From Oricola indica (lineage in GTDB: Bacteria > Pseudomonadota > Alphaproteobacteria > Rhizobiales > Rhizobiaceae): a stretch of DNA of 54,437 nucleotides. The notes beneath the pieces are model-generated. The model had not been told where the DNA came from. It saw nothing but the letters and a program-made list of their open reading frames with translations, and did no database searches. The translations under genes and the position numbers were made by a program. Positions 25,233-54,053 of the stretch are shown here, piece by piece; position 1 is the first letter of the stretch; each line of letters starts with the position of its first letter. The stretch is taken from positions 19,214 through 73,650 of the forward strand of contig NZ_JAINFJ010000014.1 of NCBI RefSeq assembly GCF_019966595.1. Direction: 5' to 3'.

Positions 25233-25309
25233 CTCGCTGGCGTTGGGGATGCTGGCGCTTCCATCAGTATATCGAGTCGTTGGCAAGGCGCATGCCCCAA
25301 TCGCGCTGT

Positions 25310-38635: not shown

Positions 38636-39453
38636 ACCAGCAACCCGCGAGCCTCACGCCGCGTCTCGACCCGGAGCGGATCGCCAGGCTGTTCGACATA
38701 ACGGGCATGCGCGTTTTCGTACCGGGAGGCTATGGAGCGATCGGCGAGGCAACCGCCACCGCCATGGCGGCTCATGGCGCGGTGGTGACCATTGCCGGCC
38801 CGAAGATCGACAAGGCCCGGGCTCTGGCCGACCGCATCGTCGACGCGGGCGGAAAGGCTCATGGCTTCGAACTGGATGCGCGGGACATCGACTCGGTGCG
38901 AGACGCCACCTCCGAGGCCATTGGCGCCATGGGCGGCATCGACACGCTGGTGAATTGCGTTGGCATCCAGCGCGAGCAGCATCTGATGGACGTGACCGAG
39001 GATGTCTTCGACGAAGTCTACCAGACCAACCTGAAATCCGCGATGTTCCTCGCCCAGGAGACGGCGCGCGACCAGATCGCGCGCGGCAAGGGCGGACGGC
39101 AGATCCACATCCTGTCGGTCCGTTCGCAACTCGCGCTGCGCGGGCGCGGATATTCCGCCTACTGCTCCACCAAGGGCGGGCTCGCCATGCTCGTCAAGCA
39201 GCATGCGATGGAGCTTGCGCCGCACAACATCACCGTCAACGGTGTCGCCCCGACCTTCATCCAGTCGGATCGCATCCGCATGCATCTCGACAAGCCCGAG
39301 TTTCGGGATTTCATTCTCGAACGCAATCCGCTTGGCCGCATTGGCGATCCGCTGGAAGTGTGTGGCCAGGTGATCGTTTTCGCCGCCCCGGCCGGCAGCT
39401 ACATGACCGGACAGATCGTCTATATCGATGGCGGGGTCACGGCTTCGCAATGA
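38632..39453 (+). CDS. Short-chain dehydrogenase/reductase
   Basis: Classical SDR of 273 residues with an N-terminal extension of about 25 residues before the Rossmann fold. The cofactor motif is VPGGYGAIGEA, a variant of the usual TGGxxGIG, and NCVGIQ replaces NNAG. The catalytic Tyr-Lys pair is in YSAYCSTKGGLAML, and the serine before it is in SVRSQ. The tail MTGQIVYIDGGVTAS is the family C-terminus. It starts in an ATGA overlap with the oxidoreductase and ends in another overlap with the dehydratase. Oxidation of a secondary alcohol on a sugar acid is likely. Confidence 0.87.
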   Translation: MNQQPASLTPRLDPERIARLFDITGMRVFVPGGYGAIGEATATAMAAHGAVVTIAGPKIDKARALADRIVDAGGKAHGFELDARDIDSVRDATSEAIGAMGGIDTLVNCVGIQREQHLMDVTEDVFDEVYQTNLKSAMFLAQETARDQIARGKGGRQIHILSVRSQLALRGRGYSAYCSTKGGLAMLVKQHAMELAPHNITVNGVAPTFIQSDRIRMHLDKPEFRDFILERNPLGRIGDPLEVCGQVIVFAAPAGSYMTGQIVYIDGGVTASQ

Positions 39454-41168
39454 CCCGGTTGCGTTCCTCCCGCTGGTTCGACGCAGACGATTTGCGCGGA
39501 TTCGGCCATCGCTCCCGCCTGATGCAAATGGGCTATGCGCGCGAGGACTGGGAAGGCCGGCCCGTCATTGCCATCGTCAATACGTGGTCGGACATCAATC
39601 CCTGCCACGCCCATTTCAAGGCGCGCGTGGAAGACGTCAAGCGCGGCGTGCTGCAGGCCGGCGGCTTCCCGATCGAACTGCCGGCGTTGTCGCTGTCGGA
39701 GAACTTCGTCAAGCCGACGACCATGCTCTATCGCAATCTCCTGGCAATGGAGGCCGAGGAACTGTTGCGGTCGCATCCCGTAGACGGCGCGGTGCTGATG
39801 GGTGGCTGCGACAAGACCGGGCCGGCGCTTTTGATGGGCGCGATCAGCATGGATCTGCCGGCGATTTTCATGCCCGCCGGCCCGATGCTGCGCGGCAATC
39901 TGAAAGGCGAGGTGTTGGGCTCCGGCTCCGACACCTGGAAATACTGGGACGAGCGTCGCGCCGGACGGATCGGCCTTGCCGAATGGCAGGAGGTCGAGGC
40001 TGGCATCGCCCGGTCCTACGGACACTGCATGACCATGGGCACGGCCGCAACGATGACAGGCATCGCCGATGCGCTGGGCCTCTGCCTGACCGGCGCGTCC
40101 TCGATTCCCGCCGCTGACGCCAACCACATCCGCATGGCCGCCGCCACCGGGCGGCGTGCTGTCGAGATGGTGCATAAGGACCTGCGTCCGTCGACAGTCC
40201 TGTCGCCTGCCTCCTTTGCAAATGCGCTGCATGTCGCGATGGCGATGGGCTGTTCGACCAACGCGATCATCCATCTGATCGCATTGTCCCGGCGTGCCGG
40301 TTTTCCGTTGACCCTGGATGACTTCCACGCCGCCGGCCAACGTGTGCCGCTTCTCGCCAACATACGGCCCTCGGGCGCGACCTATCTCATGGAGGATTTC
40401 TTCTACGCCGGAGGCCTTCGCGCCCTGATGGCGAATATGGGCGATCACATAGACCCGGCGGCGCGCACCGTTACCGGCCGGACCATGGGCGAGGAGATCG
40501 AAGGCGCGGAGACATATCTGCCCGATGTCATCCGCCGGCTTGACGACCCCGTCTCCAAAGAGCCGGCCATGGCGGTCCTGCGCGGCAATCTCGCGCCCGA
40601 CGGCGCTGTGATGAAGCCTTCTGCCGCCGATCCGCGTCTGTTGAAACATCGCGGTCCTGCGGTGGTGTTCGAAAGCTATGGCGAGATGAAGCAGCGTATC
40701 GACGATCCGGCGCTCGAGATCACGCCCGATCATGTGCTGATCATGCGCGGCGCCGGGCCGCAAGGCGGGCCGGGCATGCCGGAATGGGGCATGCTGCCGA
40801 TCCCGAAATACCTGTTGGAACAGGGCGTGCGAGACATGCTGCGAATTTCCGATGCGCGCATGAGCGGCACCAGCTACGGCGCATGCATCCTGCATGTCGC
40901 GCCGGAAGCGCATGTCGGCGGTCCGCTCGCGCTGGTTCGAACCGGAGACACCATTTCTGTCGACACCCGCGCCGGCCGTCTCGACATGGAGGTCGATACC
41001 GACGAACTCGACCGACGCCGGGCCGGCTGGGTTCGGCCCGACCGCAAGTTCGGCCGGGGCTACGGATGGATCTACTCCGATCACGTTCTGCAGGCCGACC
41101 AGGGCTGCGACTTCGATTTCCTGGAAACCGGTTTCGGCGCTGCGGTGCCGGAACCCGAGATATTGTGA
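39450..41168 (+). CDS. IlvD/Edd-family dehydratase (arabinonate/xylonate-dehydratase-like)
   Basis: Iron-sulfur dehydratase of 572 residues converting an aldonate to a 2-keto-3-deoxy acid. The N-terminus RSSRWFDADDLRGFGHRSRL is typical of sugar-acid dehydratases rather than IlvD itself. Cluster cysteines are in SDINPCHAHF, MGGCDKTGPA and GHCMTMGTAAT. The C-terminal DARMSGTSYGACILHVAPE loop is intact. It overlaps the SDR by 4 bp and precedes the aldehyde dehydrogenase by 14 bp. It shares family but little local sequence with the dehydratase at 10793-12496, so the two loci probably handle different substrates. Confidence 0.88.
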   Translation: MTRLRSSRWFDADDLRGFGHRSRLMQMGYAREDWEGRPVIAIVNTWSDINPCHAHFKARVEDVKRGVLQAGGFPIELPALSLSENFVKPTTMLYRNLLAMEAEELLRSHPVDGAVLMGGCDKTGPALLMGAISMDLPAIFMPAGPMLRGNLKGEVLGSGSDTWKYWDERRAGRIGLAEWQEVEAGIARSYGHCMTMGTAATMTGIADALGLCLTGASSIPAADANHIRMAAATGRRAVEMVHKDLRPSTVLSPASFANALHVAMAMGCSTNAIIHLIALSRRAGFPLTLDDFHAAGQRVPLLANIRPSGATYLMEDFFYAGGLRALMANMGDHIDPAARTVTGRTMGEEIEGAETYLPDVIRRLDDPVSKEPAMAVLRGNLAPDGAVMKPSAADPRLLKHRGPAVVFESYGEMKQRIDDPALEITPDHVLIMRGAGPQGGPGMPEWGMLPIPKYLLEQGVRDMLRISDARMSGTSYGACILHVAPEAHVGGPLALVRTGDTISVDTRAGRLDMEVDTDELDRRRAGWVRPDRKFGRGYGWIYSDHVLQADQGCDFDFLETGFGAAVPEPEIL

Positions 41169-41182
41169 CGCGAGGTAGGACC

Positions 41183-42622
41183 ATGGCTGGCATGCAACCG
41201 AAGCTTCTGATCGGAGGCGAGTTTCGCGAAAGCGGAGGCGCGGCTCCAATTCCCGTCATCAATCCCTGCACCGAGGAGGTGTTGTGGGAACAGCCGGCCT
41301 GTTCGGGCGACGACGTCGCCGAGGCGCTGTCGCACGCCCGTCAGGCGCAGGCGGAATGGAGCAGGGTTCATGGCTGGGAGCGGGGCCGCATCCTGCGGAA
41401 GGTGGCGGAGGAAATGAGGGGCCGCACCGACGCCATTGCCCGTGCGTTGTCCCTCGAAATCGGCAGACCCTACAACCAGTCGGCTGGCGAGGTCGGCGCG
41501 GCGATTGAACAGATCGAGTGGTTCGCGGGCGAGGCGGAACGGCTCTTCGGAGAGACGATCCCGTCACGCCAGGGCGGGAGGCTGATCATCGAGCCGGAGC
41601 CTGTCGGCATCTGTGCCGCATTCACCGCCTGGAATTTTCCGGTCAACCTGCCTGTCCGCAAGATGGCGCCGGCGCTCGCCGCCGGTTGCGCCATCCTCGT
41701 CCGGCCCTCCGAGCAGGTTCCGATGACATCGACGCTCATCGCCGAGGCATTCGTCGCGGGCGGTGTGCCGGCGGGTACGGTGCAGCTTCTGCTCGGCCGT
41801 GCGGCGGATATCACCCCCGCGATCCTCGCCGCGGACGAGGTCCGCAAGATCTCGCTCACCGGTTCGACACGCGTCGGCAAGATGCTGATGGCCGAGGCCG
41901 CACAGACCGTGAAACGATGCTCGATGGAGCTGGGCGGCCATTCGCCCGTCGTCGTATGCGCGGACGCAGACGTGGAGGCCGCGGCGGTGCAGTGCGCCGG
42001 CTTCAAGTTTCGAAATGCCGGCCAGGTCTGCATCGCTCCAAACCGGTTTTATGTCGAGGAAAGCGTGGCCGACCGTTTCCTGTCCACAATGAAGGCCGAA
42101 GCCGAAAAGCTCGTGCTCGGCGACAGCCAGAACGAAGAGACCTCGATGGGTCCGCTGACGCTGGCCTCGGGCCGCGAGAAGGTCGAGCGCCTGATCGCCG
42201 ACGCGCAGGAAAAGGGCGCGAGACTGGTGACCGGCGGCAGGCGGCCGGAAGGGCGCAACGCGGGATATTTCCTCCAGCCGACTGTTTTGGCCGGCGTGCC
42301 GGACGATGCGGATATCATGAGCGAGGAGCCCTTCGGTCCGGTCGCGCCTGTCGCGACTTTCGGTTCGTTTGACGATGCTATCGCGCGCGCCAATTCCACG
42401 CCCTACGGCCTCGCAGCCTATGCCTTCACCTCCAGCCAGGCGAAGGCCTCGGCGCTCTCGCGCGGCCTCCATGCCGGCATGGTCGGGATCAACACCTTCA
42501 TGATCGCGCATGCCGAGGCGCCGTTTGGCGGCGTCGATCACTCCGGGATGGGCCGGGAAGGGGGGCGCGAGGCGATCCGCGACTATCAGAATACCAAGCT
42601 CAGCCACATGATGGCGGTCTGA
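41183..42622 (+). CDS. NAD(P)-dependent aldehyde dehydrogenase
   Basis: ALDH of 479 residues. Motifs are AWNFPVNLPVRK, GSTRVGKML, the base Glu in MELGGHSPVV, the catalytic Cys in NAGQVCIAPNRF, EEPFGPVAP and the final SGMGREGGREAI. The ATG at 41183 has GAGG and AGGA upstream; the longer open frame before it lies over the dehydratase. One base separates it from the aldolase gene. It would oxidise the aldehyde released by that aldolase (for example glycolaldehyde or lactaldehyde) to the acid. Confidence 0.9.
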   Translation: MAGMQPKLLIGGEFRESGGAAPIPVINPCTEEVLWEQPACSGDDVAEALSHARQAQAEWSRVHGWERGRILRKVAEEMRGRTDAIARALSLEIGRPYNQSAGEVGAAIEQIEWFAGEAERLFGETIPSRQGGRLIIEPEPVGICAAFTAWNFPVNLPVRKMAPALAAGCAILVRPSEQVPMTSTLIAEAFVAGGVPAGTVQLLLGRAADITPAILAADEVRKISLTGSTRVGKMLMAEAAQTVKRCSMELGGHSPVVVCADADVEAAAVQCAGFKFRNAGQVCIAPNRFYVEESVADRFLSTMKAEAEKLVLGDSQNEETSMGPLTLASGREKVERLIADAQEKGARLVTGGRRPEGRNAGYFLQPTVLAGVPDDADIMSEEPFGPVAPVATFGSFDDAIARANSTPYGLAAYAFTSSQAKASALSRGLHAGMVGINTFMIAHAEAPFGGVDHSGMGREGGREAIRDYQNTKLSHMMAV

Positions 42623-42623
42623 C

Positions 42624-43403
42624 ATGGCGCCCCTGAACCCTGTTCGTCGCGTCTGGGCGGAGGGGTGCGCGGCTGTCAACGGCTGGATCGCGGTCCCGTC
42701 GGTGCTCAATGTCGAGGCGATGGCCAAGGCGCGCTGGGACGCGCTGACCGTCGACATGCAGCACGGCACGGCGGACTACGCCGATCTCCTTTCAATCCTG
42801 CCGGTGATCGAGAAATCGGGTGCCGCGCCGATCGTTCGGGTACCATGGCTGGACGAGGCTGCGATCATGCGTTCGCTGGATGCCGGCGCGCTTGGGATCA
42901 TCGCGCCGATGATCGAAACGCGCGAGGACGCCGAACGCCTCGTGTCCGCATGCAACTATCCTCCGGACGGCGCGCGCAGTTTCGGCCCGGTGCGAGCGCG
43001 CTTCGCATGGGGCGACGATTATGCGCGTATCGCCAATGAGGAAGTCCTCGTCTTCGCGATGATCGAAACGAAGACCGCTGTCGCCAATCTCGATGCGATC
43101 CTGTCGGTGCCGGGGTTGTCGGGCATATATATCGGCCCAGCCGATCTCTCGCTCTCGCACGGCTTTTCGCCGGGCTTCGACCGGGAAGAGCCTGAGATGC
43201 GAACCTTGATCGCCGATATCCGGGCGCGGTCGGCAGCCGCGGGTCTCCGATGCTGCCTCCATTGCGGATCGCCCGCCTATGCGGCACGCGCTGCCGCCGC
43301 CGGAATGGATCTCGTCACCATCGGTTCCGACGCCCGCTTCGTCGAAGCCGGCGCTGCGGCCGCAGTCAAAGGGTTCAGAGACGGCGCCGGTAACAAGACA
43401 TAA
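42624..43403 (+). CDS. HpcH/HpaI-family class II aldolase
   Basis: Metal-dependent aldolase of 259 residues that cleaves a 2-keto-3-deoxy acid to pyruvate and an aldehyde. The catalytic His is in VDMQHGTADYADL, the pyruvate-binding Arg in PIVRVPWLD, and the metal ligands in MIETKTAVANL and IYIGPADLSLSHG. Together with the dehydratase and aldehyde dehydrogenase it completes a non-phosphorylative route from a sugar acid to pyruvate plus a small acid. It is the last gene of the operon and converges on the EutA-like gene. Confidence 0.88.
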   Translation: MAPLNPVRRVWAEGCAAVNGWIAVPSVLNVEAMAKARWDALTVDMQHGTADYADLLSILPVIEKSGAAPIVRVPWLDEAAIMRSLDAGALGIIAPMIETREDAERLVSACNYPPDGARSFGPVRARFAWGDDYARIANEEVLVFAMIETKTAVANLDAILSVPGLSGIYIGPADLSLSHGFSPGFDREEPEMRTLIADIRARSAAAGLRCCLHCGSPAYAARAAAAGMDLVTIGSDARFVEAGAAAAVKGFRDGAGNKT

Positions 43404-43475: not shown

Positions 43476-44216
43476 TCAGCTATTGTCGGAGAGGAGCTTC
43501 CCGAATTCTTTTTTGCGAATCTCCATCCCTGCGAGGCGGCACAAATGCCAGGCCAGCACCTGGTTGCTGGAAAGGGCCGGTCTTCCCGTGCGGGCCTCGA
43601 TCTCCTCGATGATGTCGAGAGTGCGCAGGTTCGTGCATGAGATAAAGATCGCTTCCGCAGCCGGATCGTCCATGAGGCTCACCGCCGCCTCAAGGATCGA
43701 TGCAGGCGTAATGCGCGCGACAAGTGCCTCCTCGCTCGTTTCGAAGGAGCCGAAAAGAGGCGTGTCTATCCCGTTCTCGGCCAGCACCGCGCGCATCCTG
43801 GACGAAACGCTCCCGACATAGGGCGAAAGGAATGCGAGGCGGGATACGCCCAATTCCGCGCACGCGGCGATCAAGGCCGAAACCGGTTGGGTGACGGACC
43901 GTGTCGTGGTTCCGGAGCGGACGAGATCGCCGATCCGTTCAATGCCGATCACTGAGGTTCCCGAGGTGCAGCCATAGCCCACGGCGTCGAAACGGGCCGG
44001 TAGCGGCAGCAGGCGGGCGCTCGCGGAGATGTGGTGCTCCATCTCGGCCAGTGTTTCCGGCGTGACCTCATCAGCGCTCGGCACGCGTGAAACGTGCAAC
44101 GTCGCTTCGGACGGGATCATCCGGCAAAACTCGTTCTCGATCGTTTCGTCGGATTGCAGGACGATCAATCCCAGCCGGGGCTCGTCGCGTTCGTTCGTCT
44201 CAAATGCGAGGCCCAT
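43476..44216 (-). CDS. EutA/maleate-isomerase-like protein (Asp/Glu racemase superfamily)
   Basis: A 246-residue enzyme of the superfamily that uses two cysteines for racemisation, isomerisation or decarboxylation. C83 lies in GYGCTSGTSVIG and C194 in AIFISCTNLRTLDII, both in the expected positions. The start fits EutA and maleate isomerases (RLGLIVLQSDETIENEF). It sits directly after the EhuD-like permease, the same place as eutA in rhizobial ectoine loci. No reaction is firmly established for EutA, so isomerising an unsaturated or racemic intermediate is the most that can be inferred. Confidence 0.75.
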   Translation of the reverse strand: MGLAFETNERDEPRLGLIVLQSDETIENEFCRMIPSEATLHVSRVPSADEVTPETLAEMEHHISASARLLPLPARFDAVGYGCTSGTSVIGIERIGDLVRSGTTTRSVTQPVSALIAACAELGVSRLAFLSPYVGSVSSRMRAVLAENGIDTPLFGSFETSEEALVARITPASILEAAVSLMDDPAAEAIFISCTNLRTLDIIEEIEARTGRPALSSNQVLAWHLCRLAGMEIRKKEFGKLLSDNS

Positions 44217-44256
44217 ATGCGGATATCCTTCGAAGTTTCAGCCGGCGTCGGGCAGA

Positions 44257-44913
44257 TCAGTTCCTGCGGGAATATTTTTGTTCCAGCCACATCGCCGCAT
44301 AGGCCGACGGGATTGACACCAACAGGAACAGCGCGCCCACCAGCGTCATCGGCTCGAGATATTTGTAGTAGCTGTTGGAATAGATATTGGCGGCGTTGAA
44401 CAGCTCGACCACCGTGATCGCGGCGAGCAACGGCGTCTCCTTGAACATGGTGATCAGGTAATTCGCCAGCGGCGGGATCATCGGCGGGATGGACTGGGGA
44501 AGGACGACACGGGTCCATGTCTGCGCCATCGTGTAGTTGAGCGATTTCGCCGCTTCCCATTGGCCCTTCGGCACGTTCTCGATGCCGGCGCGAAACACTT
44601 CCGAAGTGTAGGTCGAGAAATGCAGGCCGAGGCCGATCACGCCAGCGAGGAACGGCGAAAGGAAGAGGCCGAGATCGGGAAGTACGTAGAACAGGAAATA
44701 GAGCTGCACCAGCAGCGGCGTGCGGCGGATGAATTCCGACAGCCAGTACACCGTCCAGCGCACCGCGCGGTTTTCCGACATCTTGAGAATAGCCAGGACA
44801 AGCCCCAGTGCGTAGGCGAGCGCAGCTCCGACGAATGTCGCCTGTACGGTGACGACGAGCCCCGCCATGAGGCGCGGAAAAACTTCTGCGGCGACGGCCC
44901 AATCCCAATGCAT
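44257..44913 (-). CDS. Polar-amino-acid-type ABC permease, EhuD-like
   Basis: Inner-membrane permease of 218 residues from the HisM/GlnP family. It has about five membrane segments. The cytoplasmic coupling loop is GQWEAAKSLNYTMAQTWTRV, the EAA-like motif of this family, followed by VVLPQSIPPMIPPLANYLI. Its start follows the stop of the EhuC-like gene by one base, so the two are coupled. It pairs with that permease and uses the EhuA-like ATPase at the head of the operon. Confidence 0.85.
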   Translation of the reverse strand: MHWDWAVAAEVFPRLMAGLVVTVQATFVGAALAYALGLVLAILKMSENRAVRWTVYWLSEFIRRTPLLVQLYFLFYVLPDLGLFLSPFLAGVIGLGLHFSTYTSEVFRAGIENVPKGQWEAAKSLNYTMAQTWTRVVLPQSIPPMIPPLANYLITMFKETPLLAAITVVELFNAANIYSNSYYKYLEPMTLVGALFLLVSIPSAYAAMWLEQKYSRRN

Positions 44914-44914
44914 G

Positions 44915-45583
44915 TCAGTTTGTCCTTACGGGCGTCATGCCGCGTCGTTTCGCGATCGATTTCGCCAGCCAGTCGGTGAAGCCGACCAGGACCGAAGCGA
45001 TCAGGAAATAGATGACGAGGATCAGAAGGAACGGCTCCAGGGTCATCGCGGTCTGGGACCGGATAATCTGGGCGGCGAAGGTCAGGTCGGACAGCGTGAT
45101 CAGCGACGTCAGCGCGGTGAGCTTCATCAGCTCGATCAGCAGATTGCCGAAGGGCGGTATCATCATCGGCACGGCCTGTGGGATGAGGACGTAGCGATAG
45201 CGCTGATAGGATGTGTAATTCAGGGAGTGAGCGGCTTCGGACTGGCCCTTGCCGACGGACTTGATCGCGCCTCGGACGACTTCGGAACCGTAGCTGCCGA
45301 GGTTGAAGCCGCAGGCGATGACGCCGGCAAGGAAAGGCGACAGGCTGATGCCCAGAAGCGGCAGCACGTAGAACATGAAGAACATCTGCACCAGCGCGGA
45401 TGTGCCGCGGAAGAACTCCAGATAGATCAGCGCCAGGGTGCGCACGATCCAGTGACGCGACAGGCGCGCGAGGCCGACGATAAAGGATATCGCCAAGGCG
45501 ATGACCGCGCTGACCACGGTGAGTTCGATGGTCAGCAGGGTTCCCTTGACCAGCAGGGGATAGAATTCGACGATCAGTTCCAT
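44915..45583 (-). CDS. Polar-amino-acid-type ABC permease, EhuC-like
   Basis: A 222-residue permease with about five membrane segments starting at LLTIELTVVSAVIALAISFI. The coupling loop is GQSEAAHSLNYTSYQRYRYV followed by LIPQAVPMMIPPFGN. FFMFYVLPLLGISLSPF marks the HisM/GlnP fold. It lies 64 bp after the binding-protein gene and one base before the EhuD-like gene. Confidence 0.85.
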   Translation of the reverse strand: MELIVEFYPLLVKGTLLTIELTVVSAVIALAISFIVGLARLSRHWIVRTLALIYLEFFRGTSALVQMFFMFYVLPLLGISLSPFLAGVIACGFNLGSYGSEVVRGAIKSVGKGQSEAAHSLNYTSYQRYRYVLIPQAVPMMIPPFGNLLIELMKLTALTSLITLSDLTFAAQIIRSQTAMTLEPFLLILVIYFLIASVLVGFTDWLAKSIAKRRGMTPVRTN

Positions 45584-45647
45584 GCCCGCTCCGTTCGAGA
45601 GCCGCCCGGCGTCCGCGCGGCTCTCGTTTCAATTGGGAAACCGCAGA

Positions 45648-46502
45648 TCAGTTGCCGGGGCAGAAATCGTCGCGCTTGACGCTCATCGTCGCCTCGGCGG
45701 AGAAGCCGAAAGGCTCGATGATCGAGGCGAATTCGCCACTCGCCTTGATCTCGCTGAGAGCCTTGTCGTAGGCCTCGCGGAAAGCGGTGTCCTCCGGATT
45801 GAACGCGGAACCGGCGCAGCCCATCGGGACGCCCTTGACCGGCATGACGAGTTCCAGATTGTCGTCGTCGAACTTCTCGAGAAGATCCTTGGTGCCGAGG
45901 CCGGACAGCGCGAAGACGTCGACGCGGCCCTGCTGCAGCATCTTGATGCCGCTCGGCGGATCGGTGAACACCTTGATCTGTGCGGGCTGCACACCGCGCT
46001 CGGTCGCATAAAGCTCCTCGGCGCAACCGGCGCAGGTGGTCATGGTGACCTCCGGATTGGCCGCGATATCCTCATAGGTCTTGATGTTGTGCGGATTGCC
46101 CTTGGCGACGGCGAAGGCTTCCGCGCCGCAGAGATCCGGCTCGGAATAGATGATCGCTTCGCAGCGGTTCGGCTTGATGTACAGGCCTGACGTGGCCATG
46201 TCGACGCGCCGGGCCAGAAGCGCCGGGATCATCGAGCCGTAGGGAACGACCTGGGCCCTCAGTTCCGGCACGCCCAGTTTCTTCATGACGGCGCGGGCAA
46301 CTTCCGGCGCGGCGCCGGAGACGTAGCCGTCGGACTTGATGTCGCTGTATGGCGGCTCATTGGCGACCGCAACGGTCGCGTATCCCTGTTTGCGAAGCTT
46401 CTCGAGCGTGTCTTCGGCCGATGCGGACGATACCGAGAGCATCGTCACCAATACGCCGGCAAGCGTCAGTCCGAGGCGTTGTCGGGTGGAGGATTTCATC
46501 AT
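45648..46502 (-). CDS. EhuB-like solute-binding protein
   Basis: Periplasmic binding protein of 284 residues (family 3, polar amino acids). A signal peptide ends at SSASAED. The mature start VANEPPYSDIKSDGYVSGAA and later GSMIPALLARRVDMATSG and LYIKPNRCEAIIYSEP follow S. meliloti EhuB closely. The ligand region keeps the Arg after KPNR and an aromatic box. From memory, two phenylalanines of the ectoine site (Phe24, Phe80) are tyrosines here, which may mean a more polar ligand. CAGCAEELY gives a Cys pair not expected in EhuB. The ATG at 46502 has AAAGGA 6-7 nt upstream. Confidence 0.85.
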   Translation of the reverse strand: MMKSSTRQRLGLTLAGVLVTMLSVSSASAEDTLEKLRKQGYATVAVANEPPYSDIKSDGYVSGAAPEVARAVMKKLGVPELRAQVVPYGSMIPALLARRVDMATSGLYIKPNRCEAIIYSEPDLCGAEAFAVAKGNPHNIKTYEDIAANPEVTMTTCAGCAEELYATERGVQPAQIKVFTDPPSGIKMLQQGRVDVFALSGLGTKDLLEKFDDDNLELVMPVKGVPMGCAGSAFNPEDTAFREAYDKALSEIKASGEFASIIEPFGFSAEATMSVKRDDFCPGN

Positions 46503-46530
46503 GGTCTTTCCTTTCGGTCGGGGGCGGGAG

Positions 46531-47316
46531 TTACGAAACATTGATGTACTTGCTGAGAAAGGCCCGGGTTCTGGGCTCGCTCGGATCCGAGAAGATGATC
46601 TTCGGATCGCCGGATTCGACGATCTTTCCCTTGTCGAAGAACAGGACGCGATCCGCGAAATCGCGGGCGAAATTCATCTCGTGGGTGACCGTGAGCATGG
46701 TGGTGTCGGAATCGGACGCCAGTTTGCGCAGGACGGTCAGAACCTCGTCGACGAGTTCGGGATCGAGCGCCGAGGTGACCTCGTCGAAGAGCATGATCTT
46801 CGGGTCCATGGCCAGCGAGCGCGCAATGGCCACGCGCTGCTGCTGCCCGCCGGAAAGCTGGTGCGGAAAGTGATTGGCCTTGTCGCTCAGACCGACTAGG
46901 CCGAGCAGTTCCATCGCCTTGTCGCGCGCTTCGGATTTTGACGTCTTGCGGACGAGAACCTGCGGCTGCTCGATGTTCTGGACCGCGTTGAGATGCGGGA
47001 ACAGGTTGAAGTGCTGGAACACCATTCCGATGTCGTTGCGCATCTTGTGGAGATGCGCCTCGCTGGCGTCGACCAGCTTTCCGTCCTTCTCCTCATGCCA
47101 GAGATAGTCGCCATTGACGACGACCTGACCCGCGCTGATCGTTTCCAGCGTCATGAGAATGCGGAGGATGGTGGTTTTTCCGGATCCGCTCGGCCCGATG
47201 AGGGCGAGTTTTTCACCGGCGGCGACTTCGAGATTGAGACTGTCCAGAACCTTCAAGCTGCCGAAGCTTTTGTGGACATTCCGGAACTCGATGATGTTGG
47301 GAACCTCAGTCAGCAG
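46531..47316 (-). CDS. Polar-amino-acid-type ABC ATPase, EhuA-like, with non-ATG or frameshifted start
   Basis: ATPase with Walker A GPSGSGKTT, Q-loop VFQHFNLFPHLNA, signature LSGGQQQRVAIA, Walker B IMLFDEVTSALDPE and switch TVTHEMNFA. The first ordinary start in frame (TTG 47256) would remove the conserved first strand. The codons just upstream encode it (PNIIEFRNVHKSFGSLKVL) with no ATG, GTG or TTG before an in-frame TGA. CTG at 47316 has AAAAGG 6 nt upstream and is used here. Alternatively, ATG at 47320 reads Met-Thr-Ala-Asp-stop, and skipping one base at that TGA enters the real frame. It is first in the minus-strand transporter operon. Confidence 0.8.
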   Translation of the reverse strand: MLTEVPNIIEFRNVHKSFGSLKVLDSLNLEVAAGEKLALIGPSGSGKTTILRILMTLETISAGQVVVNGDYLWHEEKDGKLVDASEAHLHKMRNDIGMVFQHFNLFPHLNAVQNIEQPQVLVRKTSKSEARDKAMELLGLVGLSDKANHFPHQLSGGQQQRVAIARSLAMDPKIMLFDEVTSALDPELVDEVLTVLRKLASDSDTTMLTVTHEMNFARDFADRVLFFDKGKIVESGDPKIIFSDPSEPRTRAFLSKYINVS

Positions 47317-47444
47317 TCATGACCTTTTCAGTGGCTGCCCGGCGATACGCCACGCAAACAGGGTTACCGGAAGACGAGATCGAAGCTCTTTGACAAACCG
47401 TTCTCTCTGTGATGCTAGATCGTAGCGTAGCAAAGGAATTTGAT

Positions 47445-47466
47445 GGTATTGTTCACTTACAATGCC
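47445..47466. promoter_or_regulatory. Candidate Lrp/AsnC operator in the ehuA-lrp divergent region
   Basis: GGTATTGT (47445-47452) and ACAATGCC (47459-47466) form an inverted repeat with 7 of 8 pairs around TCACTT. It lies between the divergent EhuA-like and Lrp/AsnC genes, in the A/T-rich 200-bp promoter region. Binding by the adjacent regulator is inferred from position and symmetry. Confidence 0.45.
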
Positions 47467-47520
47467 GTAGATGATAAAAACCGCTATTTTTTGCGCCCCA
47501 ATTGACCGGTAGTAATCAAC

Positions 47521-47979
47521 ATGGACCTATCCGCCGCAGACCAGACAATCCTCAGAATGCTGCAGGAAAATTCACGCGAGAGGCTGGAGGCCATCGCCAT
47601 GGAAACCGGGCTTTCGGTTGCGACCGTGCAGCGCCGCATCCGCAATCTGAAGGCCGACGGGACGATCATGGCGGAAAGCGCGCTGATCAATCCGAAGTCG
47701 GTCGGCTATGCGATGACGTTCCTGGTTTTTGTCGAACTGGAGCACGAGCGCATAGACCAGATCGACGCGTTCCGCCGCAAGGCCCGCGCGGAACCGCAGG
47801 TGCAGCAGTGCTACTACATAACCGGTGAAGCCGACTTCGCAATCATCGCGCTCGCCAGGGACATGGAGGACTACGAACACCTGACGCACCGGCTGTTCTT
47901 CAAGGACTCCAACGTCAAGCGCTTCCGCACCTCGGTGGTCATGGACCGCACCAAGGTCGGCGCGAACGTGCCGCTATAG
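47521..47979 (+). CDS. Lrp/AsnC-family transcriptional regulator
   Basis: A 152-residue regulator. The N-terminal helix-turn-helix is DQTILRMLQENSRERLEAIA with recognition helix SVATVQRRIRNLKADG. The C-terminal RAM ligand-binding domain includes QQCYYITGEADFAIIALA and the RFRTSVVMDRTKVGANVPL tail. It diverges from the transporter operon and converges on the M24 gene 9 bp away. An AsnC-type protein (AsnC/DoeX) also regulates ectoine breakdown, so it is the likely sensor of this pathway's amino-acid intermediate. Confidence 0.9.
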   Translation: MDLSAADQTILRMLQENSRERLEAIAMETGLSVATVQRRIRNLKADGTIMAESALINPKSVGYAMTFLVFVELEHERIDQIDAFRRKARAEPQVQQCYYITGEADFAIIALARDMEDYEHLTHRLFFKDSNVKRFRTSVVMDRTKVGANVPL

Positions 47980-47988
47980 AAGCTGCCG

Positions 47989-49188
47989 TCAGGCGATGAC
48001 GGGAATGGTGGCTGGCGCTGCGGTGGTCAGAAGCACCGGCCCCTCTTCGGTCAGGAGAAAGTCTTCCTCGTGCACCAGCATCCTGCCGCCGGGCAGGCCG
48101 ACAGACGGCTCCAGCGTCAGCACCATGCCGGCCTGCAGCACGGTGTCGTCATTGGCGGCAAAGGACGGCCATTCGGTCAGTTGCATGCCGAGCCCATGAC
48201 CCATTCGGCCAACGCCGCCTTCGCCGGGGAACTCCTTCCGGAGGATCCGCTGCATGGCATGGAAAACCTCGGCGCAGGTCGCGCCCGGACGTGATGCCTG
48301 CAGTCCGGCTTCCACCGCTTCGAGCAGCGCGTCATAGGCCTTGGCCGTCTCCTCGGAAACCGGACCGAACGCGAAATTGCGATCGAAGTCGCAAAAGTAA
48401 CCGTCAAATGTCGATCCGGTGTCGAGCATGAGGATATCGCCATTCTCGACGCGCCGTGTCGAGGGTGGCGAAATGATGTTGCCATAGCCGCCGCGTCCCG
48501 CACCGCCGACAAGATAGTCGACATCGTCGATACCCGCTTCGAGACAGGCGATCTTGAAGCGCCGGAAGATCTCGATATCCGTCATGCCGACGCGCAATTG
48601 CTCCGCAAAGGATCCGAAGACGCCGGAAACGAGACCGCAGGCATGGGCGATCTTCTCGACCTCCGCCGGCGACTTCACCATGCGTAATTGCCGGATCAGG
48701 CCTGTTACGTCGGCGAAGACCGTATTCGGCAGCGAAGCACAAAGCCTGCGAAAATCCCCGAGCGGCATACGAAGATGGGTCTCCGGCCCTTCGAGAATGC
48801 CGATCCTGGCCTTTTCACCCAACACTTCGCGAAGCGTATCGGCGACGAGCGTGATGCCTTCGTCATGCGGCTGCGGCGAATCCCAACATCGCACATCGTC
48901 GAGCCAGGTTGACTCAAAGCATTCGCGCCCGATCGACGGCACGATGGCGACCGGCTTGCCGGACGCCGGGACCAGCAGGAACCAGGGCCGGGTCGGGCTC
49001 AACCAGAAGCGGGAGAGGAAGCCCGTGAAATAGCGGATTTCCGGTTCAGTCGTGAGGAGAAGTCCGTCGAAACCGGTCTCCGCCATTCGGGCCTGCGCTT
49101 CGGCAAGTCGTTGTTCGAACTCCGAAGAGGAAAATCCGCGCTGCGGAGCGCTGTCGGCGGACATGGTCTGGAGGCGGGAATCGCTCAT
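47989..49188 (-). CDS. M24-family (creatinase/aminopeptidase-P fold) hydrolase
   Basis: A 399-residue pita-bread-fold hydrolase. The N-terminal creatinase-like domain (GFDGLLLTTEPEIRYFTGFL) is followed by the catalytic domain. All five expected metal ligands can be seen: D in MLDTGSTFDG, D in YFCDFDRNF, H in GRMGHGLGMQ, E in TLEPSVG and E in VHEEDF. This supports a true metallohydrolase, unlike creatinase. In ectoine loci the M24 enzyme DoeA/EutD opens the ring; here the N-terminal half looks closer to general Xaa-Pro-type proteins. The ATG at 49188 is 12 bp after the M20 stop. Confidence 0.8.
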   Translation of the reverse strand: MSDSRLQTMSADSAPQRGFSSSEFEQRLAEAQARMAETGFDGLLLTTEPEIRYFTGFLSRFWLSPTRPWFLLVPASGKPVAIVPSIGRECFESTWLDDVRCWDSPQPHDEGITLVADTLREVLGEKARIGILEGPETHLRMPLGDFRRLCASLPNTVFADVTGLIRQLRMVKSPAEVEKIAHACGLVSGVFGSFAEQLRVGMTDIEIFRRFKIACLEAGIDDVDYLVGGAGRGGYGNIISPPSTRRVENGDILMLDTGSTFDGYFCDFDRNFAFGPVSEETAKAYDALLEAVEAGLQASRPGATCAEVFHAMQRILRKEFPGEGGVGRMGHGLGMQLTEWPSFAANDDTVLQAGMVLTLEPSVGLPGGRMLVHEEDFLLTEEGPVLLTTAAPATIPVIA

Positions 49189-49200
49189 GGGCAACTGATC

Positions 49201-50397
49201 TCAGGCCGGCAATCGGGTTTCGATCAGACGCGTCCAGAATTCGGCGCCTCTGGCGAGAATGTCGTCGTTGAAATCATAGCGCGGATTGTGCAGCGCGCGG
49301 CCATTTGACCCGTCCGTGCCGTTGCCAAGGAAGAAATAGGCGCCGGGACGATGCTCCAGAAAGGCCCCGAAATCGTCGGACGCCAGCAATGGCGGGCAAT
49401 CGGCGTCAACCTCGTCCGCTCCGAACAAGGTCGCCGCAAGGCGCGCCACGATGTCGGCTTCGCGCGGTGTGTTGATGGTGGCCGTGAATTCGCGATTGTA
49501 GCGCACCGCGCATTCGGCGCGATGCGCGGCGGCGATGCCCGAGGCGATCCGGCGCATCGCTGCATCGATGACATCGCCTGTCTGCGGCGAATAGGATCGG
49601 GCATCTCCGGTGATCACCACCTGGCCGGGGATAACGTTGCGAACGCCGCTGGTCATGAAATCGGTCACCGAGACAACCGCACTTTCGACAGGATCCATCT
49701 CCCTGGAGACGATTGTCTGCAAGGCGCTGACCACCTGCGCGCCGGCAACGATCGGGTCGACGCCGCGATGCGGCATGGCCGCATGGGTGCCCTTGCCGGT
49801 CAGTTCGATGCGGAACGTATCCTCGCAGGCCATCACCGCTCCCGAACGAACCGCCACGCGTCCGGGGGCGAGGCCCGGCAAATTGTGGAGCGCATAGATC
49901 GCGTCGATGGGGAACCGCTCGAACAGCCCGTCGGATATCATGGCGCGCGCGCCACGCCCGTTTTCCTCGTCCGGCTGGAAGATGAACACCGCCGTTCCGT
50001 CGAAGGTTCCTTGTCTGGCGAGGTACAACGCTGCGCCAAGAAGCATGGATGCATGACCGTCATGTCCACAGGCATGCATGGTATCGGGCGTCGCCGATGC
50101 ATATCCGAAATCATTCTCTTCCGGGATCGGCAAGGCGTCCATCTCGGCCCGGATGGCAATGGCGCCGCTGCCTGTCCCGCGCTGAAGCACCCCGACAATG
50201 CCGGTGCCGCCAACACCTTCGTGGACAGCGATCCCGGCCGAACGCAAATGCGCGGCGATTATGCCCGACGTCCGCTTCTCGCTGAATCCGAGTTCCGGAT
50301 TGCGATGCAGGTCATGCCGCCATTCGCCCATTTGCCGACACAGGTCCTCGGGGAGACTTGCCCGTGCAGGAGTTTCCGGTGCGCGCGCCGTTTCCAT
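49201..50397 (-). CDS. M20-family amidohydrolase/deacylase
   Basis: A 398-residue zinc amidohydrolase related to hippurate hydrolase and N-acetyl-diamino-acid deacetylases. Motifs: MHACGHDGHASMLLG (metal and catalytic residues), FQPDEENGRGARAMI (Glu-Glu), LHNLPGLAPG, THAAMPHRGVDP of the dimerisation domain, and ALHNPRYDFNDD near the end. It probably removes an acyl group from the product of the M24 hydrolase, a step that the unrelated deacetylase DoeB performs in ectoine breakdown. The ATG at 50397 follows AAAGGA; codons further upstream lie in the divergent promoter. Confidence 0.87.
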   Translation of the reverse strand: METARAPETPARASLPEDLCRQMGEWRHDLHRNPELGFSEKRTSGIIAAHLRSAGIAVHEGVGGTGIVGVLQRGTGSGAIAIRAEMDALPIPEENDFGYASATPDTMHACGHDGHASMLLGAALYLARQGTFDGTAVFIFQPDEENGRGARAMISDGLFERFPIDAIYALHNLPGLAPGRVAVRSGAVMACEDTFRIELTGKGTHAAMPHRGVDPIVAGAQVVSALQTIVSREMDPVESAVVSVTDFMTSGVRNVIPGQVVITGDARSYSPQTGDVIDAAMRRIASGIAAAHRAECAVRYNREFTATINTPREADIVARLAATLFGADEVDADCPPLLASDDFGAFLEHRPGAYFFLGNGTDGSNGRALHNPRYDFNDDILARGAEFWTRLIETRLPA

Positions 50398-50612
50398 GCT
50401 GAATTTGTCCTTTTCCTGCCGGTCTGCGCGGCTTAAGGGAGGCCAATTGTCTGGAGCCGATTTCCAACCGTTCAATGCAGGCCCGCCGGCCCGAGTTTGC
50501 GGACTTTGTTCGATGCGGACAAATCATAAATAGTGTTTCGGGAGTTTAATTTTCTCATTTATTGGGCAATTTTGATGTTTCTCAGTCAAGTGCGGGGCAT
50601 ATCTTGCCGCGA

Positions 50613-51668
50613 ATGAAAATAGAGAATTCACCCGCGAACCACGGCGCGATACCGCGCCGATTTCGGGCCGTCCCGGACCGGCCGCTGGCCATGCTTCGGC
50701 AATGCCCGGTCTATCAACCCACGCCGCTGCGCCTCATGCCGGACCTGGCGGAGACGCTGGGCATCGGCGCGTTGTGGATCAAGGATGAGACGCGCCGCAT
50801 GCGGTTGGGCAGCTTCAAGGCGCTCGGTGGCGTGTTTGCCGTCGCCCAGATGATCGAGGACGCCGCCGGAACCGCCGACCTGCTTGGCGAAAAGGCGCGC
50901 CAAGCAGCGGCGGGGATGACCTTCATCACGGCCAGCGCCGGCAATCACGGCCTGTCGGTCGCGGCCGGCGCCCGTATCTTCGGCGCGCGCGGGATCATCG
51001 TGCTGTGCAGCGCCGTCCCCGAGGGCTTTGCCAAGCGCATTCGGGAGACCGGAAGCGAGGTGCTCCGCGTCGACGGTTCCTACGAGGACAGCGTACGATA
51101 TGCGATCGACGCCGCCGACCGGAATGGCTGGCTGCTGCTCGCAGATGGCTCCTGGGATGGATACACGGACCGTCCGGCCCTTGTCATGGAAGGCTATACG
51201 GTTCTCGCGGAAGAATGCCGTTCCATTCTCGAGCAGACGGGCGACTGGCCGACGCATGTCTTCCTTCAGGCCGGCGTTGGCGGATTGGCGGCGGCCATTT
51301 CCGCACATATCCGCGACCAATGGCCGGTCCAGCCCAGGATCACCATCGTCGAACCCGACGCCGCGCCCTGCCTGCTGAAAAGCATCGAAACCGGCAAGCT
51401 GACGCGCGCTGACGGCCCCGAGTCGAACATGGGCCGGCTCGACTGCAAGGATGCCTCGCTGATCGCCTTCGAGGCCCTGCGCCAGGACGCCAATGCTTTC
51501 GTGACGGTGACCGATGAAGAAGCCGAAGCTTCGGCGCGCCTGCTCGCAAGTCACGGCATTTCCACCACGCCGAGTGGGGCCGCACCGCTTGCCGCGCTCG
51601 AGAATGCCGGTCTTGGAGCGGACGCCCGCTGTCTCCTGATCGCGACGGAAGGTCCGGAGACGGCCTGA
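50613..51668 (+). CDS. PLP-dependent ammonia-lyase, diaminopropionate-ammonia-lyase-like
   Basis: Fold type II PLP enzyme of 351 residues. The cofactor lysine is in RLGSFKALGG, the substrate loop in ITASAGNHGLSVA, and the phosphate-binding turn in QAGVGGLAAAI. The segment WDGYTDRPALVMEGYTVLAEE is characteristic of diaminopropionate ammonia-lyases rather than threonine dehydratase. It would deaminate a 2,3-diamino or beta-substituted amino acid to a 2-keto acid. Here it replaces the EutB-type lyase of ectoine loci. The ATG at 50613 is chosen although its ribosome site is weak; a TTG at 50562 is possible. It is followed 51 bp later by the molybdoenzyme. Confidence 0.8.
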   Translation: MKIENSPANHGAIPRRFRAVPDRPLAMLRQCPVYQPTPLRLMPDLAETLGIGALWIKDETRRMRLGSFKALGGVFAVAQMIEDAAGTADLLGEKARQAAAGMTFITASAGNHGLSVAAGARIFGARGIIVLCSAVPEGFAKRIRETGSEVLRVDGSYEDSVRYAIDAADRNGWLLLADGSWDGYTDRPALVMEGYTVLAEECRSILEQTGDWPTHVFLQAGVGGLAAAISAHIRDQWPVQPRITIVEPDAAPCLLKSIETGKLTRADGPESNMGRLDCKDASLIAFEALRQDANAFVTVTDEEAEASARLLASHGISTTPSGAAPLAALENAGLGADARCLLIATEGPETA

Positions 51669-51719
51669 CCAAACCCGCGGAACCGGACAGACATGGCGGG
51701 TTCACCACGGAGAATGGCC

Positions 51720-54053
51720 ATGATTGACGATCGCGACGATCCAGACCCATCGACGACACTGACCGTCGGCCATTGGGGGGCATATCGCGTCCATTCCGAG
51801 AATGGGCGCCCGACACGGTTGACGCCATTCGAGGACGATCTCGAACCGTCACCGATCGGCGACGCCATGCTCGACACGCTGAGTGGCCCATGCCGGGTCT
51901 CGGCGCCGGTCGTGCGCAAGGGATGGCTGGAGGGAGATCGCGAAGCGCGCGGGCGCGACAGCTATGTCGAACTTGGCTGGGACGACGCGCTGGACCTTGT
52001 CGCCAGGGAACTCGATCGCGTGCGCACCGATCACGGGCATGAGTCGATTTATGCCGGCTCCTACGGCTGGGCGAGCGCGGGACGCTTCCATCACGCCCAA
52101 AGCCAGTTGCGCCGTTTCATGAACCTGTTCGGCGGCTGCACGACATCGAAGGATTCCTACTCCTATGCGGCAGCCGAGGTCATCCTTCCGCATATCGTCG
52201 CGCCGATGCCGTCGTTGCTGCTCGGACACACCTCCTGGAAGGCGATCGCGGAGGGCGCGAAGCTCGTCGTCGCCTTTGGCGGCATTGCGGTCCGCAATTC
52301 GCAGATGAATCCCGGTGGTACCGGGAGCCATGCGCAACAAGCGGAGATGCGTGCCGCGCGCGCCGCCGGCGTGGAGTTCGTCAATGTCAGTCCGGCGAGG
52401 GCGGATACGATGCCGGAGCTGGACGCGGACTGGTTGCCGATCCGGCCCAACACAGATGTCGCCCTGATGCTTGCACTGGCGCACACCATCATCAGCGAGG
52501 ATCGCCACGATGAGGCATTCCTGAAGAGCCATTGTACGGGCTTCGACCGGTTTCTTCCCTATCTGATGGGGGCCGCGGACGGCATGCCGAAGACCGCTGA
52601 CTGGGCGGAGGAAATCACCGGGCTCCCCGCCGACAAGATCGTGACGCTGGCCCGGCGAATGGCCTCCACACCGACCCTGGTCAATGCGAGCTGGTCGCTG
52701 ACCCGCCAGCAGAACGGCGAGCAGGCCTATTGGATGCTCGTCGTGCTGGCGGCCATACTCGGTGGCATCGGCATCAAGGGCACCGGTTTCGGCCTCGGCC
52801 TCGGTGCCGTCAGCAGCGTCGGCAGCCACCGTGCGCATATGCCGTGGGCGGCCTTCCCGACCGGTCGCAATCCCGTTCGAAGCTTCATACCGGTCGCCCG
52901 AATTGCCGACATGCTGCTCAATCCGGGCGCGCCGTTCGACTATGATGGCGGCCATTACCGTTATCCGGATACGCGCCTCGTCTACTGGGCGGGCGGCAAT
53001 CCCTTCCATCATCACCAGGACCTCAACCGGTTGCGCAGGGCGTGGGGGCGCATCGAGACGGTCATCGTCCACGAGCCGTTCTGGACGCCGCTGGCGCGCC
53101 ATGCCGATATCGTCCTGCCTGCGACTGTCGGGCTGGAGCGCAACGACATCGCCGCGTCGCCGCGCGATAATTACGCATTCGCAATGAAACGCGCGGCCGA
53201 TCCATACGGTCAGTCACGCAACGACCACGCAATTTTCGCCGGGATCGCCAGGCGGTTGCGCCCGAGCGGCAGCAATGAGACCGGCTTCGATGACGCGTTC
53301 ACGGAAGGGAGGGGCGAAGGCGAATGGCTGCGGGCGATTTACGAGGAGTCCAGGCGAAGGGCATCGGCGAAGGGTCATGACCTTCCGGGCTTCGGGGAAT
53401 TTCTCGATTCCGGGGCCATCAGGCTTGCGCCCCCGGACGAACCCGTCACGATGTTGAGCGATTTCCGCGCCTATCCGGCCGGGCATCCATTGCCGACGCC
53501 CTCCGGCCGTATCGAGATCTTTTCGGAAACGCTCGCGGGGTTCGGCCATGCCGGCCATCCGGTCTGGATCGAACCGTCGGAATGGCTGGGCTCAGAACTT
53601 TCGGCGAAATTCCCGCTGCACCTTATTTCGCATCAGCCGGAGCGCCGCCTGCATAGCCAGCTCGATCACGGCAGCCACAGCCGCGCGGGAAAGCTGCAGG
53701 GCCGCGAACCGTGCCGGATGAACCCGCAAGACGCCGCCGCCCGCAACATTGCGGAGGGCGATCTGGTGCGCCTGTTCAATGATCGCGGCGCCTGCATCAG
53801 CGCAGTCAGGCTCGATGCGGACCTGCTCCCGGGCGTCGTCATGATAGCGACCGGAGCCTGGTATGACCCCGATTGGGACACTGATCCGGAGTGCTGCAGA
53901 CACGGCAATCCGAATACGCTGACACGCGATCTGCCGACATCCACCCTCGCGCAAGGCCCCAGCGCCCAGACCTGTCTGATTGAAGCAAAACGTCTGGAAA
54001 CAGAACCGCCGGCTGTCACCGCGTTCGATCCACCGCAAGTGCTGGGCCGGTAA
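51720..54053 (+). CDS. Cytosolic BisC-type molybdopterin oxidoreductase (S-/N-oxide reductase family)
   Basis: Bis-MGD enzyme of 777 residues in the DMSO-reductase family, paralogous to the DorA encoded at 27720-30188. The active-site Tyr115 and Trp117 lie in AGSYGWASAG. The Mo-ligand serine is probably S148 in KDSYSYAAAEVILPH. Cofactor-binding segments include YWAGGNPFHHHQDL and the HADIVLPATVGLERND loop. There is no Tat signal or Fe-S motif, so it should act in the cytosol like biotin sulfoxide reductase. The ATG at 51720 is preceded by GGAG at 7 nt; 51693 and 51714 are alternatives. Its place behind the ammonia-lyase suggests that it reduces an S-oxide or N-oxide in this pathway. Confidence 0.87.
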   Translation: MIDDRDDPDPSTTLTVGHWGAYRVHSENGRPTRLTPFEDDLEPSPIGDAMLDTLSGPCRVSAPVVRKGWLEGDREARGRDSYVELGWDDALDLVARELDRVRTDHGHESIYAGSYGWASAGRFHHAQSQLRRFMNLFGGCTTSKDSYSYAAAEVILPHIVAPMPSLLLGHTSWKAIAEGAKLVVAFGGIAVRNSQMNPGGTGSHAQQAEMRAARAAGVEFVNVSPARADTMPELDADWLPIRPNTDVALMLALAHTIISEDRHDEAFLKSHCTGFDRFLPYLMGAADGMPKTADWAEEITGLPADKIVTLARRMASTPTLVNASWSLTRQQNGEQAYWMLVVLAAILGGIGIKGTGFGLGLGAVSSVGSHRAHMPWAAFPTGRNPVRSFIPVARIADMLLNPGAPFDYDGGHYRYPDTRLVYWAGGNPFHHHQDLNRLRRAWGRIETVIVHEPFWTPLARHADIVLPATVGLERNDIAASPRDNYAFAMKRAADPYGQSRNDHAIFAGIARRLRPSGSNETGFDDAFTEGRGEGEWLRAIYEESRRRASAKGHDLPGFGEFLDSGAIRLAPPDEPVTMLSDFRAYPAGHPLPTPSGRIEIFSETLAGFGHAGHPVWIEPSEWLGSELSAKFPLHLISHQPERRLHSQLDHGSHSRAGKLQGREPCRMNPQDAAARNIAEGDLVRLFNDRGACISAVRLDADLLPGVVMIATGAWYDPDWDTDPECCRHGNPNTLTRDLPTSTLAQGPSAQTCLIEAKRLETEPPAVTAFDPPQVLGR

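Follow-up and report, generated by a model that had tools for sequence, protein, structure and literature searches.

Gene content of an ehu-like cluster in Oricola indica

We analyzed a stretch of 54,437 nucleotides of the Oricola indica genome (contig NZ_JAINFJ010000014.1; hereafter the window), in which ten genes at positions 43476-54053 associate an ectoine-type (Ehu) ATP-binding cassette (ABC) transporter with several enzymes and a molybdoenzyme. All ten are uninterrupted open reading frames (ORFs). On the minus strand, a first run encodes an EutA-like racemase/isomerase with catalytic-type Cys83 and Cys194 (43476..44216; identified from a TIGR02990 score of 161.5 bits and cysteine conservation), ABC permeases resembling EhuD (44257..44913; TIGR03003, 280.8 bits for a cut-off of 205.2) and EhuC (44915..45583; TIGR03004, 241.4 for 196.95), a substrate-binding protein that resembles EhuB, belongs to a separate subfamily and has a CAGC loop (45648..46541; TIGR02995, 293.7 for 190.9; nearest structure 2q88) and an EhuA-like ATPase whose ORF overlaps that of EhuB (46531..47256; TIGR03005, 379.7 for 345.4, with the profile match starting at position 13). 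An Lrp/AsnC-type regulator, assigned with Pfam and NCBIfam, diverges from ehuA on the plus strand (47521..47979). It is followed on the minus strand by an M24 hydrolase of prolidase/creatinase fold, assigned by Pfam and alignment, in which five M24 metal-ligand positions are retained (47989..49194), and, 6 bp away, by an M20 amidohydrolase resembling N-acyl amino acid hydrolases (49201..50475; nearest structures ILL2 and YxeP). The plus strand then carries a pyridoxal phosphate (PLP)-dependent lyase of the diaminopropionate ammonia-lyase (DAL) family (50562..51668; PRK08206, 299.9 for 276) and, after 24 bp, a BisC-like enzyme related to molybdenum S/N-oxide reductases (51693..54053).

The first-pass annotation had named these same ten products, and the Pfam and NCBIfam names are much alike. 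It had described an ehuA-B-C-D-eutA-like order on one strand; the minus strand is shared by this run and by the paired M20 and M24 genes, and the Lrp, DAL-like and BisC-like genes are on the plus strand. The frame of EhuA continues upstream over 47257-47320 (minus strand; NIIEFRNVHKSFGSL) and contains no ATG, GTG or TTG; the real start probably lies upstream of the listed one, and either a non-standard initiation codon or an error in the sequence may be the cause. When five ehuA-lrp intergenic regions were aligned in search of a conserved operator, only the ehuA start appeared conserved by eye. The contig, and with it the window, stops 384 bp past the BisC-like gene, so the cluster may extend further. 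Neither tRNAs nor Rfam families at gathering thresholds were found in the window. Directly before the cluster (approximately 38955-43403, plus strand), genes resembling by eye a sugar-acid pathway were observed (IlvD/Edd-type dehydratase, aldehyde dehydrogenase, HpcH-type aldolase).

All four transporter components exceed the NCBIfam equivalog cut-offs for ectoine. The following enzyme models are missed: EutA (161.5 vs 318), DoeA (60-62 vs 575-613), DoeB2 (326 vs 550) and bisC (883 vs 1017.55). The M20 protein does exceed the general model TIGR01891 (327 for 153.75). The lyase scores 40-49 bits on two EutB models (cut-off 413) vs 300 for DAL. Among the ten genes, no match to EutC or ornithine-cyclodeaminase models and no AstE/AspA-family member (DoeB/EutE) was detected. 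The best-known comparison is the ehuABCD-eutABCDE cluster for ectoine and hydroxyectoine catabolism, of the type described for Sinorhizobium meliloti (PMC5924519). The two share the order of EhuABCD and an EutA-like gene, an AsnC/Lrp regulator, an M24 protein, an amide hydrolase and a fold-II PLP enzyme. Unlike that cluster, the window locus lacks EutB, EutC and DoeB, has a metal-type M24 protein and a DAL-family lyase, adds the BisC-like enzyme and carries an altered EhuB ligand loop. We regard it as a variant related to the ehu/eut catabolic clusters that stands outside the canonical group; family scores and residue states led us to reject a plain ectoine cluster.

The first-pass annotation had proposed that each step is done by a different family. 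The claim was overstated: at the level of broad families, the M24 protein groups with DoeA and the lyase with EutB, and so they represent other subfamilies, not wholly different folds. Its background, in which the ectoine deacetylase DoeB is of a different family, also has to be corrected, since NCBIfam already has an ectoine deacetylase of the M20 type (DoeB2). DoeB2, ILL2, YxeP and the window protein have the M20 amidohydrolase family in common. In the literature within reach of our search, which leaves out most subscription papers, we found neither a description of this gene set nor any work joining EutA with diaminopropionate ammonia-lyase. The word "diaminopropionate" does not occur in the main text of a 2026 survey of ectoine catabolism, which does report an amidohydrolase gene for Gram-positive ectoine clusters without eutE (PMC13188858).

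A rare EhuB subfamily and its gene neighborhood

We searched for EhuB in 388 genomes of the family to which O. indica belongs. Five relatives of the window protein were found at 78-83% identity, and the next matches reached at most 52%. Two overlapping samples of the class (385 genomes) and the order (397 genomes), both searched at E <= 1e-105, added none and one further member, respectively, the latter in genome G812 of another family. This type of EhuB is therefore rare, with seven genomes found. On a tree, these sequences group together (support 0.999) and have the 24 canonical EhuB as their sister clade (0.839), the two together being supported at 0.968.

In mature numbering taken from the alignment to 2q88, all seven carry Tyr at position 80, Ala at 133 and Cys at 129 and 132, where the 24 canonical proteins have Phe, Thr, Pro and Gly. 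These four positions, in or near the ligand loop, reportedly contact ectoine in the crystal structure. Position 24 is Tyr in the seven, and Phe in 21 and Tyr in 3 of the 24 canonical sequences, while Glu21, Tyr60 and Arg85 are retained in all 31. Ectoine is described as being held in EhuB by aromatic cation-pi contacts and by an arginine that contacts the carboxylate (PMC6344544, PMC2871039).

The genomic environment of this subfamily is conserved. BisC, Lrp and the lyase adjoin EhuABCD in six of the seven genomes, from three genera; in the five besides O. indica, identities are 57-68% for BisC and 51-62% for the lyase. Lrp adjoins EhuB in all seven. In both genomes of another genus (loci L181 and L182; the BisC of L182 is cut off at the edge of the stretch examined), M24 and EutA belong to the same run, as in the window. 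A chance neighborhood can be rejected from this recurrence. All seven genomes contain a BisC and an M24 relative (44-100% identity for M24). BisC was also sought in nine genomes, including the source genome and G812 as positives; at E <= 1e-60, none of the seven relatives chosen as lacking this EhuB had it. These were five other Oricola genomes, G051, which has only a canonical EhuB of 48% identity, and G260, for which no EhuB match is listed and whose inclusion in the EhuB search is not shown. The subfamily is thus tied more tightly to BisC and Lrp than to M24, EutA or M20. That an S/N-oxide-reductase-like cytosolic enzyme and non-canonical enzymes accompany an ectoine-type transporter, as first noted for the window, is accordingly a recurrent feature.

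The M24 protein is distributed more widely. A scan returned at least 555 relatives at E <= 1e-3, and the best 80 (50-71% identity) were kept as loci, 52 of them with full flanks. Most are from alphaproteobacteria, with a few other groups, and many are marine judging by organism name. Within about 10 kb of M24, these 80 loci contain EutA-like genes in 65 cases, DAL-like in 63, Lrp in 37, M20 in 35 and EhuB in 5. BisC was counted in two; in L006, the match has 29% identity and is probably a different molybdoenzyme. In the family of O. indica, this M24 is present in 57 of 394 genomes at E <= 1e-100. Among 34 family M24 loci, source genome included, DAL lies within about 1.5 kb in 25 and EutA in 21; six have EutA and no DAL at this distance (for L104, the DAL is a few kb off in L129) and three have neither. 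At L078, an AstE/AspA-family gene stands by DAL and M24, where other loci have M20.

The transporters near the M24 sets vary: Ehu-type, dipeptide-type (L123, L006), SBP_bac_8 (L062) and tripartite ATP-independent periplasmic (TRAP; L016) systems were observed. The three most similar M24/lyase loci are L123, L006 and L122. In L123, a gene some 400 bp past the lyase scores 743 bits on the DppA model, short of the cut-off of 1005; in L006, a family 5 substrate-binding protein gene lies about 7 kb from M24; near the M24/lyase of L122, no dipeptide-type ABC system was seen. Dipeptide-type systems near two of these three loci point rather to a peptide-like compound or an N-acyl amino acid, which weakens the cyclic substrate initially suggested.

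Nine loci, which we call type-2, associate another EhuB subfamily (a separate clade, support 1.0) with M24 and EutA in all nine, DAL in eight and M20 in seven. Their hosts are Rhodobacteraceae, other alphaproteobacterial metagenome-assembled genomes and members of the window's own family. BisC relatives (49-52% identity) occur at L071, L129/L210 and L134/L209, adjoining a CysK-like PLP gene; in L070 the match was short and weak, and L069 had none. A PLP protein of about 490 residues (CysK-like in L071, 66 bits) adjoins BisC, DAL or M20 genes in L069-L071, L081, L134 and L208. All nine type-2 EhuB (L015, L069-L071, L081, L128-L130, L134) have Trp24, Trp60 and Tyr80 and lack Glu21, a pocket pattern that suggests a quaternary-ammonium ligand. 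Near these EhuB lie FAD-GcvT genes, accompanied at some loci by PhyH genes. A betaine ligand, considered from the N-methyl chemistry of some type-2 loci (FAD-GcvT, Rieske and sarcosine-oxidase genes), was not carried over to the window, as none of these genes is among the ten.

Active-site residues of the enzymes

The window BisC-like protein begins with MAGSPRRMAMIDD, without the hydrophobic stretch of a twin-arginine translocation (Tat) signal, in agreement with the first-pass annotation and unlike a second reductase in the window. It is 38-40% identical to Escherichia coli BisC, E. coli TorA and the Tat-bearing reductase of the same genome. Together with seven relatives (L178-L181, L206 of G812, L209 and L210), it splits from all three with support 1.0. 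The GSYGW loop is found in the window enzyme and its seven clade relatives, as in E. coli BisC; TorA is gapped here (S-GW). Like E. coli BisC, Rhodobacter capsulatus dimethyl sulfoxide (DMSO) reductase and Haemophilus influenzae MtsZ (the last outside our alignment), the protein belongs to this family, has the GSYGW loop and carries a Ser at the position that we take to be the molybdenum ligand of DMSO reductases. Unlike them, it forms its own clade and is tied to an importer and a lyase. According to PMC5122715, the aligned S-oxide reductases keep equivalents of Tyr114 and Trp116, and TorA lacks Tyr114. Both equivalents are present in the window enzyme. Because its loop matches S-oxide reductases and not TorA, an S-oxide would be favored over an N-oxide as substrate, and the Tyr loop disfavors a trimethylamine N-oxide-type reductase.

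The second molybdenum S/N-oxide reductase (27720-30188, plus strand, with 27043-27660 and 22228-25286) has a Tat-type signal and is 40% identical to the first. By eye, its surroundings resemble those of a respiratory dor/tor operon, the preceding ORF looking like a chaperone of the TorD type and upstream ORFs like a response regulator and a sensor.

In the M24 protein, D258, D269, H333, E362 and E376, which we assume to be the metal ligands of the M24 family, are each conserved at 97% or more across 97 aligned rows. In three DoeA, one of them from the source genome, these positions read E, P, Y, M and T, so that all five are changed in each. Among the M24 rows, L077 and L132 are apparently one locus, their contigs both being 84031 long; among the lyase rows, this pair recurs and L006/L131 are the same locus. 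The dimethylsulfoniopropionate (DMSP) lyase DddP was rejected as an identity for the M24 protein (26 bits against 600). In the EutA-like protein, Cys83 is found in all 77 aligned cluster relatives and Cys194 in 76 (one gap), and both are present in six of six canonical EutA.

The lyase shares its family and the PLP lysine, Lys77 of E. coli diaminopropionate ammonia-lyase (YgeX), with that enzyme; this lysine is present in 79 of 79 rows. Lys77 and Asp120 are described as potential catalytic residues of the E. coli enzyme (PMC4000059). At the Asp120 position, the window lyase and 23 others have Ala (23 with the motif ASAGNHG, as in the window, and one ATAGNHG), vs Asp in the remaining 55. The window lyase thus departs from the Lys77/Asp120 pair by which a diaminopropionate ammonia-lyase would be recognized. 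The Ala and Asp groups separate on a midpoint-rooted tree, bar one row, and all six lyases of the EhuB-BisC-Lrp set have the Ala and retain Lys77.

A proposed pathway and its alternatives

We tentatively propose, with a confidence somewhat short of even, that the locus takes up and degrades a small zwitterion other than ectoine and similar to it in charge pattern, with a cation held by aromatic residues and a carboxylate held by an arginine. The EhuB-type protein and EhuACD would import an oxidized amino-acid derivative, most likely bearing a sulfoxide, and the cytosolic BisC-like enzyme would reduce the S- (or N-) oxide. The metal-dependent M24 and, in the source genome, M20 enzymes would then cleave C-N bonds (peptide, N-acyl or ring amide), the two-cysteine EutA-like enzyme would adjust configuration as a racemase or isomerase, and the DAL-family enzyme would release a 2-oxo acid and ammonia by eliminating the beta-substituent, with the divergent Lrp protein regulating the set. 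On the simplest reading, the reduced compound would enter an M24/EutA/lyase route that other importers feed in relatives without BisC. The M24, M20, EutA and lyase reactions are predicted from family chemistry and active-site residues, and we infer the order of steps, the oxide and the substrate from the observed gene content, recurrence, co-occurrence and residue states. The nine type-2 loci, three with a BisC relative, count as independent recurrence in favor of the proposal. About as tentatively, the locus may encode a catabolic pathway of which our searches gave no description. An Ehu importer with a re-cut pocket would take up a zwitterionic amino-acid derivative as its sulfoxide or N-oxide, a molybdoenzyme that is cytosolic and belongs to a new clade would reduce it, and a metallo-M24, an EutA-like enzyme and an Asp120-less lyase would degrade it, two Ehu subfamilies having been recruited to related sets. 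As substrates, a ring analogue of diaminopropionate, S-alkyl-cysteine sulfoxides and cycloserine-like, DMSP-like and ergothioneine-like compounds were also considered, and none gained support.

Several observations weigh against this proposal. M24-EutA is far from Ehu-lyase-BisC in genomes G024, G125 and G194, where in G024 and G194 its neighbors look by eye like housekeeping genes. Lrp is the sole member of the set next to EhuB in G812, which has its BisC (54%) and M24 (44%) elsewhere and a best lyase match of 41%. With M24 away from Ehu in four of the seven genomes and this weak lyase match, the genes may not form a single pathway. M20 adjoins the set in the window only, the best M20 of the other six genomes being 43-48% identical. 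The type-2 BisC relatives (L209 of G167, L210 of G225, L071 and L129) have Asn or Gly at the presumed molybdenum-ligand serine, and so may do other chemistry. In the passage of PMC5122715 concerned, the molybdenum ligand is an aspartate. Finally, the ectoine cut-offs passed by EhuA-D and the canonical doe genes described below would fit ectoine import. The observation of the first-pass annotation is confirmed and its interpretation partly supported: BisC, Lrp and the lyase stay with EhuB in six of seven genomes, while M24-EutA lies elsewhere in four of seven and EhuB is found in five of the best 80 M24 loci.

The separation of M24-EutA in G024, G125 and G194 would be explained if two systems were adjacent, Ehu-Lrp-BisC-lyase serving one compound and M24-EutA(-M20) a general salvage of dipeptides or N-acyl amino acids whose adjacency is incidental. 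The family loci with EutA and no nearby DAL (six of 34) or with neither (three), and the dipeptide-type transporter adjoining the lyase in L123, are consistent with this view, as is a second M24-EutA pair at C41 of the source genome (L121). By eye, this pair and those of L127 (between clpX-like and lon-like genes), L014 and L027 lie amid housekeeping genes, which suggests a role independent of any importer. We nevertheless find this explanation rather doubtful: DAL lies near M24 in 25 of the 34 family loci and 63 of the best 80 wider loci, the lyase, M24 and EutA adjoin Ehu-Lrp-BisC in L181 and L182, and M24 is present in all seven genomes with this EhuB.

An ordinary ectoine/hydroxyectoine importer is another explanation, either feeding doe genes elsewhere, with the neighboring enzymes unrelated or alternative, or supplying the local M24, M20 and lyase with hydroxyectoine. 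The first-pass annotation had envisaged canonical genes elsewhere in the genome, and DoeA (647.8 bits for a cut-off of 613) and DoeB (573.1 for 402.7) are indeed at C22 of the source genome, adjoining aminotransferase, semialdehyde-dehydrogenase and AsnC-like genes. No Ehu-type gene was found beside them and no importer was recognized there by eye. DoeA also exceeds its cut-off in six of the seven genomes with this EhuB, the seventh being 66% complete. Given these findings, ectoine import by this Ehu system is possible, and the transporter scores and the retained Glu21, Tyr60 and Arg85 fit it. It is nonetheless unlikely as an account of the locus. Five other Oricola genomes have DoeA and yet no EhuB relative at E <= 1e-40, and the ligand-loop residues are altered in all seven proteins. 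At six loci with canonical-type EhuB (G051, G101, G142, G209, G262 and G352; of 83 matches at 45-52%), EutA-like and M24-family genes adjoin in every case, the M24 being confirmed as DoeA at L183, L184 and L185, whereas the window subfamily adjoins BisC and the lyase.

Very improbable as a substrate is a 2,3-diaminopropionate derivative (for example N-acylated, N-methylated or an imidazoline ectoine analogue), which M24 would open, M20 deacylate and the lyase split. The PRK08206 score and the AstE/AspA-family gene of L078, which fits ring opening followed by deacylation, would favor this reading, but it conflicts with the Ala at Asp120 and leaves BisC without a role.

Judged from its sequence features, the locus probably handles another, oxidized nutrient rather than ectoine. 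With EhuA-D over the equivalog cut-offs, NCBIfam would name this transporter "ectoine/hydroxyectoine", though its ligand loop and gene company differ, and annotations of this kind would make ectoine consumers seem more numerous than they are. The M24-EutA-DAL set, which is not rare, probably metabolizes some solute, and the rare Ehu-BisC form offers a compact, testable entry to it, in which screening can start from a single binding protein and a single reductase.

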